49,356 nt of DNA, taken from the NCBI GenBank assembly GCA_017527155.1, contig JAFXQI010000033.1, forward strand, positions 1 through 49,356, written 5' to 3'. Source of the DNA: Kiritimatiellia bacterium. GTDB taxonomy: Bacteria; Verrucomicrobiota; Kiritimatiellia; CAIQIC01; Lenti-01. The notes below the pieces were generated by a model. That model ran no database searches. It was not told the origin of the DNA and worked only from the letters and a program-made list of their open reading frames with translations. Shown here piece after piece: positions 28,042 to 34,356 of this stretch. Made by a program: the position numbers and the translations under genes. The stretch's first letter is position 1. Each line of letters begins with the position of its first letter.

Positions 28042-29571
28042 TCACAACCCGCACGGAGCCGCCAGACGGAAGCCGCGATCCCAAAGTGCTCCCGGCAATG
28101 GAATTCCGGAATCCCGATAGGACGCAGTACACTTGCCGGAGCCAGCACTCCAGTAATAACTTCCACCGCGCAACACGCGCTCGGATCCCTGAGACGCTCC
28201 CACAGGATTCATCTCCCCGTCCGCCAAGTCGCCTTTCCAGTCCAGACACCATTCCCACACGTTCCCGTGCATGTCGTAGAGTCCCCATGCGTTCGGCAAA
28301 TAGCTACCCACCGTTGTATGGTTGCTGCTGTAGCCCCCCTTGCCGTCGGATTGGTTGCCGGAATAGCGTCCCAGCTTCTTCAAATCCTCCTCCGTGCTTC
28401 CCCCGTTGTTGTAATTACTCGTCGTTCCTGCTCTGCATGCATATTCCCACTGCGCCTCCGTCGGCAGGTCGAATGAGAGACCGGTCCGGGCCCGAATCCG
28501 CCCCATGAACGAATCCATCGATACTATCGATGAAACCGGCCAGTTGGTATTGCCCCGGATGTCCATCCATGACACCTCCTCCACCGGCCGCATGTCCCCC
28601 TCATACTCCGCCGGATTGCTCCCCGTCACCAGCTCGTACTGCTTCTGCGTCACCTCGAACACCCCCATGTAATACGGCTTCGTCAGGGTCGTCTCGTAGC
28701 TCCCGCCCATCATGAACGTCCCCGGCTCGATCCGCCGCAGCACCAGCTTCGTCGTCTTGTACTCGTCCGTGTTGAACCCGCCCGCGGGTTCCCCGTCCAT
28801 GTACTCCACCGGCCACGTTGCCGCGTCCGGCCCGCCCGAGAGGTCCACAACCAGATACTTCGCCTTCACCGCCGCAGATCCGTATTCATAGCACCCGATA
28901 TCCACCGTCCCGTTCGCGATGCGCGCGTTGCCCGCAAGGTCTGTGGCGGTTGTGACATAGGCATTGTCTCCGGCGTCGATGCAGGGGGAGCCTGACGCAA
29001 GGCGGTAATCGCCGTTGGCAGCATCTACAAAGCCGGGGTCATTGGTGTAGCATGAGGTCATCGCGGTTGGCGTTCCTCCATCAGAAGAATCGCAAACAAG
29101 CTCCCCAGAATCACAAATATTTCCATAAACGATGCAATTATTCAGAAGGGAACAACCCACAATGCCGCCAGAGCGTGCATGGTTTCCGACGATGGTGCAA
29201 TTGACGTTTGTGCTGGCATACATGGCAGCGCCAGCCGATCGCCCGCCTGTATTGTATGCGTAATTTCCAGACAGCAAACAGTTTTCGGCATGTGACCAAA
29301 ACAGTGCCCCTCCATCGTCGCGAGAGTAGTTGTCCACAAAAATGCATTCGAAGGCGTATCCACGGGCCAATCCTCCACCTCCCAGAGCGGAACAGTTCCG
29401 AATTTGGCAATGTTCCAATCTTGCCCCCCAAACTCCACCTCCATCTCCTCCATAGCCACTCCATGAACCGTTCACACGGCAATCTCGGATTATGCAGTTC
29501 CGAATTGTACCAAAGCGAATACCTGCCCCTCCCGCCCCCTCCCAGCTGATATACAGGTATCCATCAGACAC
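28042..29571 (-). CDS. 3' part of the split secreted protein: beta-helix and SUMF1 domains
   Basis: The open frame encodes 509 residues. Residues 10-230 are a right-handed beta-helix of the polymorphic-outer-membrane/choice-of-anchor-Q kind (repeated NCII, NCLLSGN, NCTIVGN, then AGDNAY and DIGCYEYG). From about 240 on is a formylglycine-generating-enzyme-like (SUMF1) domain: FMMGGSYE, EVTQKQYELVTG, RPVEEVSW, LPTEAQWEYACRAGT, WGLYDMHGNVWEWCLD, VLRGGSYYW, DRGFRLA. One of the two catalytic Cys of true FGE is replaced by Trp, so the domain is probably not a sulfatase activator. The apparent GTG start lies inside the beta-helix and lacks a ribosome site: this is the continuation of the upstream frame, joined by restoring one T at 29574-29577. 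GC content is clearly lower than in the neighbours. Confidence 0.82.
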   Translation of the reverse strand: MSDGYLYISWEGAGGAGIRFGTIRNCIIRDCRVNGSWSGYGGDGGGVWGARLEHCQIRNCSALGGGGLARGYAFECIFVDNYSRDDGGALFWSHAENCLLSGNYAYNTGGRSAGAAMYASTNVNCTIVGNHARSGGIVGCSLLNNCIVYGNICDSGELVCDSSDGGTPTAMTSCYTNDPGFVDAANGDYRLASGSPCIDAGDNAYVTTATDLAGNARIANGTVDIGCYEYGSAAVKAKYLVVDLSGGPDAATWPVEYMDGEPAGGFNTDEYKTTKLVLRRIEPGTFMMGGSYETTLTKPYYMGVFEVTQKQYELVTGSNPAEYEGDMRPVEEVSWMDIRGNTNWPVSSIVSMDSFMGRIRARTGLSFDLPTEAQWEYACRAGTTSNYNNGGSTEEDLKKLGRYSGNQSDGKGGYSSNHTTVGSYLPNAWGLYDMHGNVWEWCLDWKGDLADGEMNPVGASQGSERVLRGGSYYWSAGSGKCTASYRDSGIPLPGALWDRGFRLAAPCGL

Positions 29572-32500
29572 CGAAAACCATCCAGAATCGTTGCTTGGTC
29601 TCCCTCCTTTTCACCAAGGAGCGCACATTGAGACGTCCCGTTGCCACTGATGACCGTGCTTTCCGCTCCGTTCAGCGAACGGATGGTAATGCCCTTGTTG
29701 GCCGTCACAATCGGCGCATACGTCCCGTCCGCAACCAGAATCGTCTCCCCCTCCGACGACGCGTCAATCGCCGCTTGAATCGTCTTCTTCGCTGTCGCCC
29801 AGCTGCGGCCGTCGTTGGAGTCGTTGCCGGATGAAGCAGAAACGTACCAGTCGCCCGTGCTGGGCGGCACACCACTCGCCCATGACAATTCAATTTCGTA
29901 CCACACTGCCCCAGACCAAGAATCGTTGAACTTGACCGTTGTTGTGTAGTCGTTTTTCGAGCTTGGTCCTTCCACCAAAGTTACGGGTTGGCGACAGGTA
30001 ATTGCCGTCAGGGAGACGGTCACCTCATCCGAGAATGGAATGCCGGTTTCTCCCAACGGCAACTCATATACATCTGATGTCACTCCTGCTTCCACCCACG
30101 TGCTTCCGCCCGGATCATAGCTCCAAACAGGATACCACACTTGCCCGTTGATAAAGGTTGCTTCATTTCCGTTCCCGTCCGCATGGTGGCCAGGCAACAC
30201 GTTGCTGATGTGCTCAAACCAAATGGCATTGCCGCGGATTTTTATATAATCCGCTCCATCAATAAACGTTCGAATTCTCAAAGTCGGAGGCCCCGGTTCC
30301 ACCGGCTCGCTCGGCACCGCGTTCAGCGTCACGCTGACGCGGCTGGCGTGGAAGTCGGGGTAATCGGCGCCGAGGTTCCAGGAGAGGCGGCGCTTGCCGG
30401 GTTCGACGGTGGCGCCACGCGCGCCGTCGCCGGCGAGGGTCGAGGCGACGAGGGCGGCCTTGTGGTCGCGGTCGTAGCCGGAGAGGGTGACCTTGGCGAC
30501 GGTGCCGGTGGGGGCGGTTTCGAGCGTGTAATCGACGTCCACCCATCCGTTCCAGGGCCAGCGGGCGTGGGCTTCGACATCCTTGACGGTGGCGGTCTTG
30601 ACGATGGGGGCGACGAGTGCGACCTCCAGCGAGCCTTCGACGGTGGAGCCGTCGATGAAGCGGGCGGTGACAACGATGGTGCGGTCTTCTTCGAGCTTGC
30701 CGACCGTGAGCAATCCGTCGGAGCCGATGGTGGCGAAAGTGCCGCCGGACGCGATGGACCAGACGGGGACCACCGACGCGACGGCGCCGTTTTCGTAGCG
30801 GACCTTGGCGGTGTACGCCGCCGTGGATTCGGCGGCGACGCGGTCGGGGCCGAGGATGGTGAGGGCGACGGGCTTGGGCGAAATCTTCCGCAGCCCCACG
30901 GCGGGGCCGCCGAAGGCGCTGGCGGCGGTGCCCGTCTCGTCCACGGCGGCCTGGACGGTGTAGTAGTAGACGGTGCCGGCGGTCGCCGTCGTGTCGTCGA
31001 AGGCGAGGGCGGTCTGCCACGTGCCGAGGGCGGTTTTGGCGCCATCCGCGCTGTCGGCGCGCCAGACGCGGTAGAATTCCGCGCCTTCGCACGCCTTCCA
31101 GGAGACGGCGACCTTGTCGGCGTATGTGCCGTAGCTGGCGGAGACGCCGGTCGGGGCCGCGACCGGCCGCACCGCTTCCACCACCGCGCTGCCGGGCGCA
31201 CCGGCGCCGGCGGCGTTGGCGGCGCCGACGCGGTAGGCGTAGGCCACGCCCGGCGCGGCCGAGGCGTCGGTGTGTTCGGTCGCCGTCGTCGAGGCCACCA
31301 CGGCGGAATCTTCCCCGGGGCCCGATCGCCACAGCTGGTAGCTCGTCGCGTTGGCCACCGCGCTCCAGCGCAGGGCGATGCCGCGCTCCGTCGCGGAGAC
31401 GAGTTCAAGCGTTGCGGGGGCCGACGGCACGGCGGGGGTCACGGTGATGGTCAGGCGCCCGGTGCGGTTGGCCGTTCCGTCGGAATAGGCCGCCGAGAGC
31501 GTCACGGTGGTGTTCTCCCCCGCCACCGGGGCGGTGACCACCGCCTTGCCGTCCGAGACGGCGAGCGAGCCGCCCGAGAGGGTCCACTCCGGGGCGACCG
31601 TCGTGCGCGTGCCGTCGGTCGAGACGGCGGTGCAGGTGTAGGTTCCCCGGCCGCCCGAAACCAGCGAGACGGGGCCCGAAATCTCCAGGGCTTTCAGCGC
31701 CGGCGGGCCCGTCCGGAACCCTTCGTCCGGCACACCGAACGCGCTCTCGCGGGTGCCTTCGGCATCGACCGCCGCCGTCGCGTAGTAGAGATGGGGCATC
31801 CCGGCCTCTGCCGTGGTGTCCGCGTACTGGCACGCCGTCTGCCACGGGGAAACCGCCACGGGCTCGCCGTCCTCCCCGTCCGCGCGCCAGACGCGGTAGT
31901 GGGAGGCGCCCTCCGAGCGGTTCCACGCCACGTCCACGCGGTCGTCGCGCGTCCCGTCCGAGGCCGAGAGGTTCGCCGGGGCCGCCAGCGCGCGCCAGCC
32001 CCAGGCGCCGGGGCTGAAGGGGCTGCTGCCGGAGCCGTTCTTGGCCTTCACGAAATAGCGGTAATCCACGCCGGGGACCGCCGCCGTGTCCGCGTAGCGG
32101 GTCGCCGTCACCGTGCCGATGTACGCCGCGTTGCCCGAACTCTCCCGGGTTCCGCGGTACACCGCGTAGCCGGCCGCCCCCTCCGACGCCGTCCACGAGA
32201 GGCGCACGCAGCTCTCTTCCGTGCCCGCCGTCGCTTCCAGATCCGCCGGGGCCGCGGGGGCCGCCACCGTCACGAAGAAGCTCCACTCCGCCGTCTTCGA
32301 CACCCCGCCCTCCGAATACGACGCCCGCAGCTTCACCGTCCGCTGCTCGCCCGTCGCTTTCGCCGTCACCCGACCCGAGGAATCCACCGACGCCCACTTC
32401 CCGCCCTCGGCGATGCTCCAGCGCGGCGACACCGCTTTCGTGGAGCCGTCGCTGTAGGCCGCCGTGCAGGAGAAGACCGCCGAGCTGCCCGCCTTCAGGG

Positions 32501-34043
32501 AGTTCACCCCCTCGATCGAGAGCCCCGCGAGCGACCGCACCACCGCCGCCGACTTCACGTACGCCTTGCAGCAGAAATTCGCCGTGCTCGACACCCGCGC
32601 CGTGAAGTCGTCCCATTTGCTCCCGTTCGCGCTCAGGTAGCTCTCCCCTTCCTTCGCCGAGGCGGCGGCCGAGTAGCCCGCCACCGCGTATTCCACCGCC
32701 AGCGGGTACGCATAGCCCGGCGTCGTCAGCTGCACCACGACCGAGAACCGCTGCCCCGCCGACACCGCCGCGGGCGTCTCCAGCGGGACCGTCACGTAGC
32801 CCGCCGCGTCCACCGTCCCGCTCTGCTGCGCCGCCAGCGTCCCCGACCGCGGCGACCCCGCCCGGCAGCCCGTGTACACCATCAGCGTGTACGTCGTGCG
32901 CGGCGTCATCGCATAAAAGCCCGCGGCCGCCACCTTCGAGGCCTCCGCCGCCGTGAAGACGTTCGCGCCCCAGGCCGTCGGCCCGGCATAGCCGATGGCG
33001 CCGACCATCCCCAGCGGATCGTGCTGGTAGACCGCGTCGTAGTTGTCCGCCGCCTCCGTGCCCGAGAACGAATAAAGCGGCTTCCACGCGAACGACTCGT
33101 CATAGTAGGAAATGTGGAAATACCCGTCCTCGCCCCATCCGCTTCCCCAGCTGTTCCGCACGATGTACGCCCCGTCGCCCGGCGGCTCCGGCTTGAAATT
33201 CTTCCTGGAGTAGCCGTCGTCCCACCCCACCAGGTCCACCGCGTGGTTCGAGAGCCGGTAGGACGTGCCCGGATTGAAGTAATAGGCGGCCGTCTTCGCG
33301 TTGTAGTAGCTCCCCGCGTGGTAGTAGTCCGCCTGGAGCGCGCCCCACGACTTCAGCGCCTGCTTGATGCCGTCGTTGTCCAGATACGCCGTCTTGCCCG
33401 GAATCCACCGCACCCGCTGCACGTGCCGCACCGGCGTCCCCGCCACGCTCTTCCCCGGACGCGGATACGCATCATCGCTCTCCGCCACCGGCCCCGCCCA
33501 GCGAAGGAAATACCCCTCCGCCATCTGCGCGTTGCCGCCCGCCCCGAACCCCTGGCTCCACCCGTGCAGGTTCACCAGATGGTTCTCCGACAAATCCAGC
33601 TCCGTCCCCTCCGACTTCTTCACCCACGACTCCAGCGACCCCATCGCCGCGAACGCCCAGCAATTCCCGTAGGAGCCCTGGTCCCGCACCGCCGTCAGCG
33701 CCCCGGTCTCCCGCAAATCGTATGCCGGTTCCAGCACATCCCCGACACCCTGCGCCAGGTTGTCGTTGAGGTTCGACAGATACCCCATGTCCAGCACCGT
33801 CGGCACGAACCCGAAATCCATGTCCTCCCCGCCCGCCTCCCCGCGGGCCGCCGCCGCTCTCACCCCCCGCGGCCTGGCCGTCTCCGGCCCCTTCTTCCCC
33901 TCCGCCTCCTTCGCCGCCTGTTCCCGCTGCCACCGCGCGAACGCCGGATTCACCGGCGCCATCTGCTGCGCCCACACGCTCCCCGCCAGCGCCGCCATCA
34001 TCGCCGCCGCCAGCCAGCTCTTCATGTTCCGTCCGTTTTTCAT
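29490..34043 (-). CDS. 5' part of the split secreted protein: papain-family cysteine peptidase with Ig/Fn3 repeats
   Basis: The ATG at 34043 follows AAGGAGA and a signal peptide (SWLAAAMMAALAGSVWAQ). A C1 peptidase domain follows with catalytic C128 (GNCWAF), H267 (SNHAVDLVGWDDG) and N297 (RNSWGSGWGEDG), then a lectin-like domain common in bacterial C1 peptidases. Repeating Big/Ig-like (SLKAGSSAVFSC, VSGGRGTYTC) and Fn3-like units (LSWTASEGAAGYAVYRG and similar) fill about residues 490-1170. Next is the ARWPWNGWVDVDYTLE domain that usually precedes SUMF1 in these genomes, a low-GC insert, and the start of a beta-helix (WATAKKTIQAAIDA). The true frame is lost near 29574; the last about 28 codons of this frame are spurious. 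Without the lesion the product would be about 2,000 residues, secreted or surface-bound. Confidence 0.85.
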   Translation of the reverse strand: MKNGRNMKSWLAAAMMAALAGSVWAQQMAPVNPAFARWQREQAAKEAEGKKGPETARPRGVRAAAARGEAGGEDMDFGFVPTVLDMGYLSNLNDNLAQGVGDVLEPAYDLRETGALTAVRDQGSYGNCWAFAAMGSLESWVKKSEGTELDLSENHLVNLHGWSQGFGAGGNAQMAEGYFLRWAGPVAESDDAYPRPGKSVAGTPVRHVQRVRWIPGKTAYLDNDGIKQALKSWGALQADYYHAGSYYNAKTAAYYFNPGTSYRLSNHAVDLVGWDDGYSRKNFKPEPPGDGAYIVRNSWGSGWGEDGYFHISYYDESFAWKPLYSFSGTEAADNYDAVYQHDPLGMVGAIGYAGPTAWGANVFTAAEASKVAAAGFYAMTPRTTYTLMVYTGCRAGSPRSGTLAAQQSGTVDAAGYVTVPLETPAAVSAGQRFSVVVQLTTPGYAYPLAVEYAVAGYSAAASAKEGESYLSANGSKWDDFTARVSSTANFCCKAYVKSAAVVRSLAGLSIEGVNSLKAGSSAVFSCTAAYSDGSTKAVSPRWSIAEGGKWASVDSSGRVTAKATGEQRTVKLRASYSEGGVSKTAEWSFFVTVAAPAAPADLEATAGTEESCVRLSWTASEGAAGYAVYRGTRESSGNAAYIGTVTATRYADTAAVPGVDYRYFVKAKNGSGSSPFSPGAWGWRALAAPANLSASDGTRDDRVDVAWNRSEGASHYRVWRADGEDGEPVAVSPWQTACQYADTTAEAGMPHLYYATAAVDAEGTRESAFGVPDEGFRTGPPALKALEISGPVSLVSGGRGTYTCTAVSTDGTRTTVAPEWTLSGGSLAVSDGKAVVTAPVAGENTTVTLSAAYSDGTANRTGRLTITVTPAVPSAPATLELVSATERGIALRWSAVANATSYQLWRSGPGEDSAVVASTTATEHTDASAAPGVAYAYRVGAANAAGAGAPGSAVVEAVRPVAAPTGVSASYGTYADKVAVSWKACEGAEFYRVWRADSADGAKTALGTWQTALAFDDTTATAGTVYYYTVQAAVDETGTAASAFGGPAVGLRKISPKPVALTILGPDRVAAESTAAYTAKVRYENGAVASVVPVWSIASGGTFATIGSDGLLTVGKLEEDRTIVVTARFIDGSTVEGSLEVALVAPIVKTATVKDVEAHARWPWNGWVDVDYTLETAPTGTVAKVTLSGYDRDHKAALVASTLAGDGARGATVEPGKRRLSWNLGADYPDFHASRVSVTLNAVPSEPVEPGPPTLRIRTFIDGADYIKIRGNAIWFEHISNVLPGHHADGNGNEATFINGQVWYPVWSYDPGGSTWVEAGVTSDVYELPLGETGIPFSDEVTVSLTAITCRQPVTLVEGPSSKNDYTTTVKFNDSWSGAVWYEIELSWASGVPPSTGDWYVSASSGNDSNDGRSWATAKKTIQAAIDASSEGETILVADGTYAPIVTANKGITIRSLNGAESTVISGNGTSQCALLGEKEGDQATILDGFRCLMDTCISAGRGREGQVFALVQFGTA

Positions 34044-34116
34044 CGCGCGTCTCCTTGGCCCCGTCCGTTCCACGGAAACACTCCCTCGGGGCAGAAAGAA
34101 AGGCGTCTCCGTTCGC

Positions 34117-34226
34117 GACAAGCTGAGGCCGTGAGAATTGCCCACTCAAAACACGAAAGAAGCACGCCATAGGCGCGCCCTTTGCTTGTTTGTTTTGAGT
34201 TGAAATTTCTCACGTTTCAGCTTGTC
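34117..34226. repeat. Long imperfect inverted repeat upstream of the peptidase gene
   Basis: The left arm starts GACAAGCTGA, then CGTGAGAA and ACTCAAAACA. The right arm gives the same three blocks in the same order on the opposite strand (ends at 34226). The arms are about 38 bases, with three perfect blocks of 10, 8 and 10 bp. The loop contains CGCC-ATA-GGCG. It could form a 110-base RNA hairpin in the peptidase leader or be a small non-autonomous element. Confidence 0.75.
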
Positions 34227-34356
34227 AAAAACATCTTGCAAAAGATGCGTATTCAATTGTTCGCCACCCTCGGCCGCACTGCGGTCTCCGGCAACATTTT
34301 CACCCTACTCCCGCCCCCCCATCCCCGTCAATCCAATTTTGCATCACCTCCCGCCT

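Follow-up and report, generated by a model that had tools for sequence, protein, structure and literature searches.

What is the 110-base inverted repeat at positions 34117 to 34226, in the leader of a giant peptidase gene? The window, i.e., the whole stretch of DNA analyzed here, comprises 49,356 nucleotides from a Kiritimatiellia bacterium (contig JAFXQI010000033.1), and an earlier note on it had proposed that the repeat might be either an RNA switch-like hairpin or a MITE with 38-base inverted ends. The evidence presented below strongly supports the conclusion that 34117-34226 is the rod (helices P1 to P4) of a class of structured cis-regulatory leader RNAs that lies outside Rfam, and we think it probable, on balance, that leaders of this class work as four-segment attenuators.

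The arms of the repeat were located as described previously, with three blocks in register, mismatches between them, and agreeing coordinates, and 74 nt separate the end of the rod from the ATG at 34043, the distance to the peptidase start that had been given. The mismatches form internal loops only, and an apical hairpin (34156-34183) extends the fold beyond the three paired blocks. On the minus strand, which is that of the gene, the sequence from 34110 to 34232 folded at -60.3 kcal/mol versus -31.6 +/- 3.4 kcal/mol for dinucleotide shuffles (z = -8.5; 0/200 shuffles), whereas the plus strand of the same inverted repeat gave a weaker fold (z = -6.1). The rod consists of P1 (10 bp), an AA/GCC loop, P2 (8 bp), an AUUUCA/GGGCAA loop, P3 (10 bp), and the apical hairpin P4. 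The element exceeds the stretch first noted, as it also includes a hairpin on the 5' side (34232-34247) and a segment on the 3' side (34093-34116). Features of the window copy are listed in Table 1.

Table 1. Positions of leader features and of the downstream gene in the window
Feature	Positions	Strand	Remarks
GACAAGCTGA block	34117-34126	+	Pairs with 34217-34226
CGTGAGAA block	34130-34137	+	Pairs with 34207-34214
ACTCAAAACA block	34144-34153	+	Pairs with 34191-34200
Possible promoter: TTGACG (34331-34326), 18 nt, TAGGGT (34307-34302)	34302-34331	-	By eye; weak
5' hairpin P0 (CATCTT/AAGATG), within segment-1 region	34232-34247	-	Model helix 1; two-sided changes at 6/6 pairs in 96 sequences
Segment 1, GUUUUUGA	34225-34232	-	Complements segment 2 (UCAAAAC, 34192-34198)
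P1 5' strand, GACAAGCUGA	34217-34226	-	Covariation tests
AA of AA/GCC internal loop, invariant	34215-34216	-	AA required by anchor search
P2 5' strand, CGUGAGAA	34207-34214	-	Covariation tests
Conserved internal loop AUUUCA	34201-34206	-	Faces GGGCAA (34138-34143); alignments
Segment 2: P3 5' strand (34191-34200) and apical P4 5' strand (34172-34183)	34172-34200	-	Fold, covariation
Segment 3: P4 3' strand, GGCGUGCUUCUUU (34156-34168), and P3 3' strand (34144-34153)	34144-34168	-	Fold, covariation
P2 3' strand, UUCUCACG	34130-34137	-	Covariation tests
GCC of AA/GCC internal loop, invariant	34127-34129	-	GCC in 189/192 distinct copies; CC required by anchor search
P1 3' strand, UCAGCUUGUC	34117-34126	-	Covariation tests
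Segment 4, GCGAACGGAGACGCC	34102-34116	-	Complements segment 3
U-rich tract, UUUCUUUCU, terminator-like	34093-34101	-	After segment 4
Shine-Dalgarno region, AAGGAGACGCGCG	34044-34056	-	Before ATG (34043-34041); kept in other family copies
Downstream gene: 1,517-aa papain-family peptidase (Peptidase_C1) with Lectin_like and fn3 domains	29490-34043	-	Pfam

Two further features were seen on the minus strand of the window copy. Between 34160 and 34180, the apical hairpin P4 is followed by CUUUC, a combination that is itself terminator-like and a possible earlier stop site. Between 34060 and 34116, there is a further conserved GGCCC...GGGCC pairing around a U-rich stretch and before the Shine-Dalgarno region, and in the window's family this pairing could be part of an H-type pseudoknot. 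A consensus promoter scan of the window leader gave no site above threshold; other copies of the window's family retain TTGACG and a TAAGC-like box.

A blastn search with the window element detected eight copies: three within the window's genome, four in a second species of its genus, and one in a different genus. The closest other copies in the window's own genome were 70 to 77% identical over part of the element. A covariance model built from these eight copies (R1) matched in 81 of the 288 genomes of the window's class, with a maximum of 18 copies in one genome. An exact core pattern occurred in at least 117 stretches of public genomes, which belonged to Kiritimatiellae/Verrucomicrobia MAGs and to Bacteroidota; the latter included, among the pattern matches listed, Prevotella, Pedobacter, Sphingobacterium, Niabella, Larkinella, Dyadobacter, and Chitinophaga. 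A second model, built from both groups (R2), matched all 17 genomes of a set taken from the listed Bacteroidota pattern matches (one to eight copies each), 24 of 296 genomes sampled from Bacteroidota, and 49 of 288 genomes of the window's phylum, nine of them assigned to the same phylum only, i.e., outside the class. In the window's genome, a Kiritimatiellae MAG, R2 marked 19 sites; one was an antisense echo of the window copy, which leaves about 18 divergent copies. E values of both models are rough, and the many genomes with no match speak against indiscriminate models. The exact core pattern was absent from viral contigs, and blastn searches with one copy each as the query gave no match in plasmid and phage records. 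Some genomes carry paired copies 1 to 4 kb apart (G090:C4:117175 and 118313; G035:C8:9501 and 13068), so some neighboring genes each have their own leader. The element of locus L179, from a record titled Lentisphaeraceae, looks identical to that of L026 from a Kiritimatiellae genome, and the MAG label or the binning of the former may be wrong.

The copies differ in a manner expected of a conserved RNA structure. In the alignment of the eight blastn copies, loops and flanks were common to all and stems varied with compensation, and 33 cells were changed on both sides versus 14.4 in shuffles. In a 96-sequence alignment, which was fitted to the model and includes four antisense rows, 92.5% of cells were paired versus 61.3% when shuffled, two-sided changes occurred at 45 of 46 pairs, and the covariation score was 0.630 versus 0.154 for shuffles and at most 0.083 in slid registers. 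Dispensing with a fitted alignment, we also anchored copies on the first loop's AA and CC and maximized pairing. Among 97 distinct Kiritimatiellae copies, 15 of the 17 P1 and P2 positions then paired in 92 to 100% of copies; the exceptions were the outermost P1 pair (51%) and the innermost P2 pair (84%). Most positions showed three or four Watson-Crick types. The anchor search has a mild bias, which cannot produce such counts of pair types. Across the alignments, the internal loops AA/GCC and AUUUCA/GGGC were near-invariant. The earlier note had named the joint absence of covariation in relatives and of a second copy in the genome as telling against its reading. Covariation among homologous leaders is overwhelming by both the fitted and the alignment-free approach, and second copies were found, about 18 in the window's genome.

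Nearly every readable copy is followed by a coding start on the same strand. In the window's genome, this start mostly lies 47 to 60 nt past the element, and most of the encoded proteins are secreted; among them are lipoproteins, proteins with BspA-like repeats, and another protein with an N terminus similar to that of the window's peptidase. Pfam searches with 133 downstream proteins, whose open reading frames were chosen mechanically, with some wrong calls expected in GC-rich DNA, identified EcoRI-type methylases in 11 of the 133, along with MmeI, D12, C5, and other DNA methylases and ResIII. Glycosyltransferases, acyltransferases, FrhB, GtrA, BspA leucine-rich repeats, PEP-CTERM, and TonB plug domains were also present; this tally is a description rather than a test of enrichment. 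EcoRI-type adenine methylase genes with the leader occur in both phyla (L024, L029, L035, L041, L116, L121, L207, L227, L241, L258, L261, and others), which suggests that the leader and this methylase travel together.

Upstream of the leaders, promoter-like motifs were enriched. In Kiritimatiellae, TGCTAT was found 60 to 75 nt upstream of the AA loop, with 19 copies in the 70-to-74 bin versus 0.0 in shuffles, and the Bacteroidota-type motif TAnnTTTG occurred 78 times versus 10.1 in shuffles among the pattern matches listed, which are rich in Bacteroidota. These enrichments are as expected of a transcribed leader with its own promoter. Copies of one subgroup of the window's genome, G000 (L265, L266, L268, L269, and L052), have a stretch resembling GAACTGAAACAATCGTA(A)GTCC upstream; the genes after them encode mostly secreted and partly BspA-like repeat proteins.

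Two complementarities within the leader would compete with the rod. In nearly all copies, segment 3, on the 3' strand of the apical hairpin, and segment 4, at the end of the leader, are complementary over about 18 to 20 pairs. Over all copies, the 3:4 duplex of a leader's own segments had an energy of -25.6 kcal/mol versus -18.2 kcal/mol when segments were swapped between copies. The difference held within families (-26.3 versus -20.6, -26.4 versus -18.6, and -23.5 versus -19.2 kcal/mol; ranges, -23.5 to -26.4 for own and -18.1 to -20.6 for swapped segments), with permutations as good in 0 of 5,000 cases in families f12, f32, and f1 and in 10 of 5,000 in f37, the smallest family. The pattern matches listed gave -24.9 kcal/mol (own) versus -17.3 kcal/mol (swapped; 0/3,000), and the window copy gave -21.0 kcal/mol. 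Directly after the 3:4 helix, a U-tract (at least 4 U's in 8 nt) was present in 165 of 192 copies. The second complementarity is that of segment 1, located 5' of P1, to segment 2, on the 5' side of P3/P4. No permutation among 3,000 matched the own 1:2 pairing in f12, f32, f1, or the pattern matches listed; the test failed in f37, in which 2,729 of 3,000 permutations were equally good, and in the window copy the 1:2 duplex is weak (-11.4 kcal/mol). Among control pairings of regions, five of six were not significant, the sixth being that of segment 1 with the 3' arm in f12 (1/1,000). With both complementarities, the leader is able to form either 2:3, i.e., the rod, or 1:2 plus 3:4.

Several properties bear on how the second form could arise. 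In model values, the median energy advantage of the rod is 11 to 12 kcal/mol, and in the window copy it amounts to 20 kcal/mol (-64.4 versus -43.9 kcal/mol). Since the rod is more stable, the form with 1:2 and 3:4 would be cotranscriptional, and an OFF state in the window copy needs kinetic trapping; by the order of the segments, 1:2 is made before the rod during transcription. At about 50 nt, the loop of the 3:4 hairpin would be a long one by the standards of intrinsic terminators. Because segments 2 and 4 are similar, a common constraint could account for part of the 3:4 signal. Among segment 3 bases that are unpaired in the rod, 82% pair in the 3:4 helix with the leader's own segment 4 versus 72% with swapped segments, a difference that is not decisive.

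A four-segment attenuator would use these pairings as follows. The leader would be transcribed from its own promoter. In the ON state, segments 2 and 3 would pair and, with P1 and P2, build the long rod, which would act as an antiterminator; segment 4, purine rich, ending in the U-tract, and sometimes containing a Shine-Dalgarno sequence, would be left free, and transcription and translation would proceed. In the OFF state, segment 1, the first to leave the polymerase, would capture segment 2, and segment 3 would then pair with segment 4 to give a terminator-like helix followed by the U-tract, which would also hide the ribosome-binding site where the start codon adjoins. The most likely role of the near-invariant AA/GCC and AUUUCA/GGGC loops is that of a receptor for a small molecule or a protein that would stabilize the rod and so turn the gene on. 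We infer that the alternative structures form in the cell, that 3:4 terminates, that the ON and OFF states are assigned as given here, and that a ligand exists. The proposal of an RNA switch-like hairpin is thus borne out as regards a structured cis-acting leader RNA, given the covariation, the fixed place and strand, and the alternative pairings, and its switching part has the conditional standing of these steps.

A different use of the same segments would be translational. Segment 3 would serve as an anti-Shine-Dalgarno sequence over segment 4, with a protein bound to the rod setting access and with no termination. As such a switch would have it, some Kiritimatiellae copies have their ATG 7 to 10 nt past segment 4; GGGAG or AAGGA in that segment is the Shine-Dalgarno sequence and complements the C/U-rich strand of segment 3. 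In most copies, however, the start codon lies 40 to 145 nt further on and has its own Shine-Dalgarno sequence, yet these copies keep both the 3:4 pairing and the U-tract, and we consider a purely translational switch or protein-bound leader unlikely.

The rod might instead bind to RNA polymerase or to a polymerase-associated factor and carry the enzyme past terminators within long operons for surface proteins, polysaccharides, or restriction-modification, in the manner of put, EAR, and ops/LoaP leaders. EAR, JUMPstart, and LoaP serve genes like those downstream of the present element, and the 3' end of many copies, GGGAGCGTGCTTTTTATG, which we take to resemble ops, was also counted in favor of such processive antitermination. 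A one-state RNA, however, needs neither the 1:2 nor the 3:4 complementarity, the copy-rich genomes mostly encode a single NusG-family protein, with no RfaH- or LoaP-type partner evident, and neither the JUMPstart nor the EAR family of Rfam was matched; we therefore regard this reading as improbable. It is still more doubtful that the element is a free-standing small RNA that merely overlaps leaders. A long, stable rod with a 3' U-tract does resemble a terminated small RNA, but a same-strand coding start follows nearly all readable copies, and the presence of 10 to 18 copies in a genome, upstream of unrelated genes, suggests action in cis. Finally, a DNA element such as a MITE, a REP/ERIC-like repeat, or a recombination site would be palindromic and multicopy, as this one is with its roughly 18 copies in the window's genome, but the MITE proposal and its relatives can be dismissed with little hesitation, given that the copies are not near-identical and have structure rather than sequence in common, that their stems covary with compensation, that place, strand, and orientation relative to the gene are constant, that promoters of the type of the host lineage lie upstream, and that neither the exact pattern in viral contigs nor blastn of one copy each in plasmid and phage records gave a match.

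Candidate partners of the attenuator were sought among the proteins of carriers. c-di-GMP was rejected as a general ligand, as none of 14 RNA-rich genomes encodes GGDEF (PF00990). An RfaH-, LoaP-, or UpxY-type partner is disfavored by the single PF02357 protein in the copy-rich G000, G001, f12, and g72 genomes; many f32 carriers encode two. RRM proteins were present in 32 of 32 genomes tested, which is uninformative as to an RRM-protein partner. As a tendency, the Kiritimatiellae richest in copies have one NusG and no GGDEF, whereas copy-poor relatives often have two NusGs and several GGDEFs, a pattern that may simply reflect a host-associated lifestyle. Some RNA-poor genomes counted as negative proved positive with a broader model (G004, G013, G019, and G065), and we claim no general inverse rule.

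Searches of Rfam 15 at the gathering threshold gave no match in the window; among 19 loci drawn from both phyla, the only matches were an FMN riboswitch and a tRNA that lay elsewhere in the loci. Even at E values up to 5, nothing relevant matched the window leader. The motif is not described in the open papers searched, among them the main texts of structured-RNA surveys. "New" here means not found in Rfam 15 or in these papers.

A single RNA class with near-invariant loops thus precedes DNA-methylase/restriction, polysaccharide, and surface-protein genes in both Bacteroidota and Kiritimatiellae, with up to 18 copies per genome, and many of its carriers are gut or rumen bacteria. We tentatively raise the possibility of a new class of riboswitch or antitermination RNA, spanning two phyla, whose loops might sense a signal common to the control of envelope, polysaccharide, and restriction-modification genes (e.g., phage or envelope stress) and which might switch a regulon genome-wide. 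If the leader is an attenuator controlled by a ligand or a protein, its genes would constitute an undescribed regulon, and what the RNA senses is a directly testable question, made practicable by the cultured carriers Niabella, Pedobacter, Sphingobacterium, and Larkinella.

Among known systems, candidate structured RNAs from the human microbiome (PMC8040213) are similar in that they occur in Bacteroidetes, are palindromic, and in some cases lie near phage or surface genes; the main text of that survey has no motif of this description, and an unnamed entry in its supplements is possible. Terminator/antiterminator riboswitches have in common with the present leaders a conserved receptor-like core, an expression platform with covarying, mutually exclusive helices, and many copies per genome, but the core here, a rod interrupted by the loops AA/GCC and AUUUCA/GGGC, belongs to no Rfam family at the gathering threshold, and the ligand is putative. 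JUMPstart/ops elements with RfaH, LoaP leaders, and EAR (epsC, RF01735) likewise occupy the leaders of polysaccharide and surface genes, and many of our copies end in GGNAGCGTGCTTTTT, an ops-like sequence. In contrast with those systems, most copy-rich genomes lack an extra NusG, the fold and the partners differ, and there is no Rfam match. Four-segment attenuators of the trp type resemble these leaders in their 1:2, 2:3, and 3:4 pairings, the last of which is followed by a U-tract. No consistent small open reading frame that might encode a trp-type leader peptide was seen by eye in the leaders of either phylum. Unlike the trp-type attenuators, the leader RNA class precedes unrelated genes rather than one biosynthetic operon, and its antiterminator rod carries conserved internal loops.
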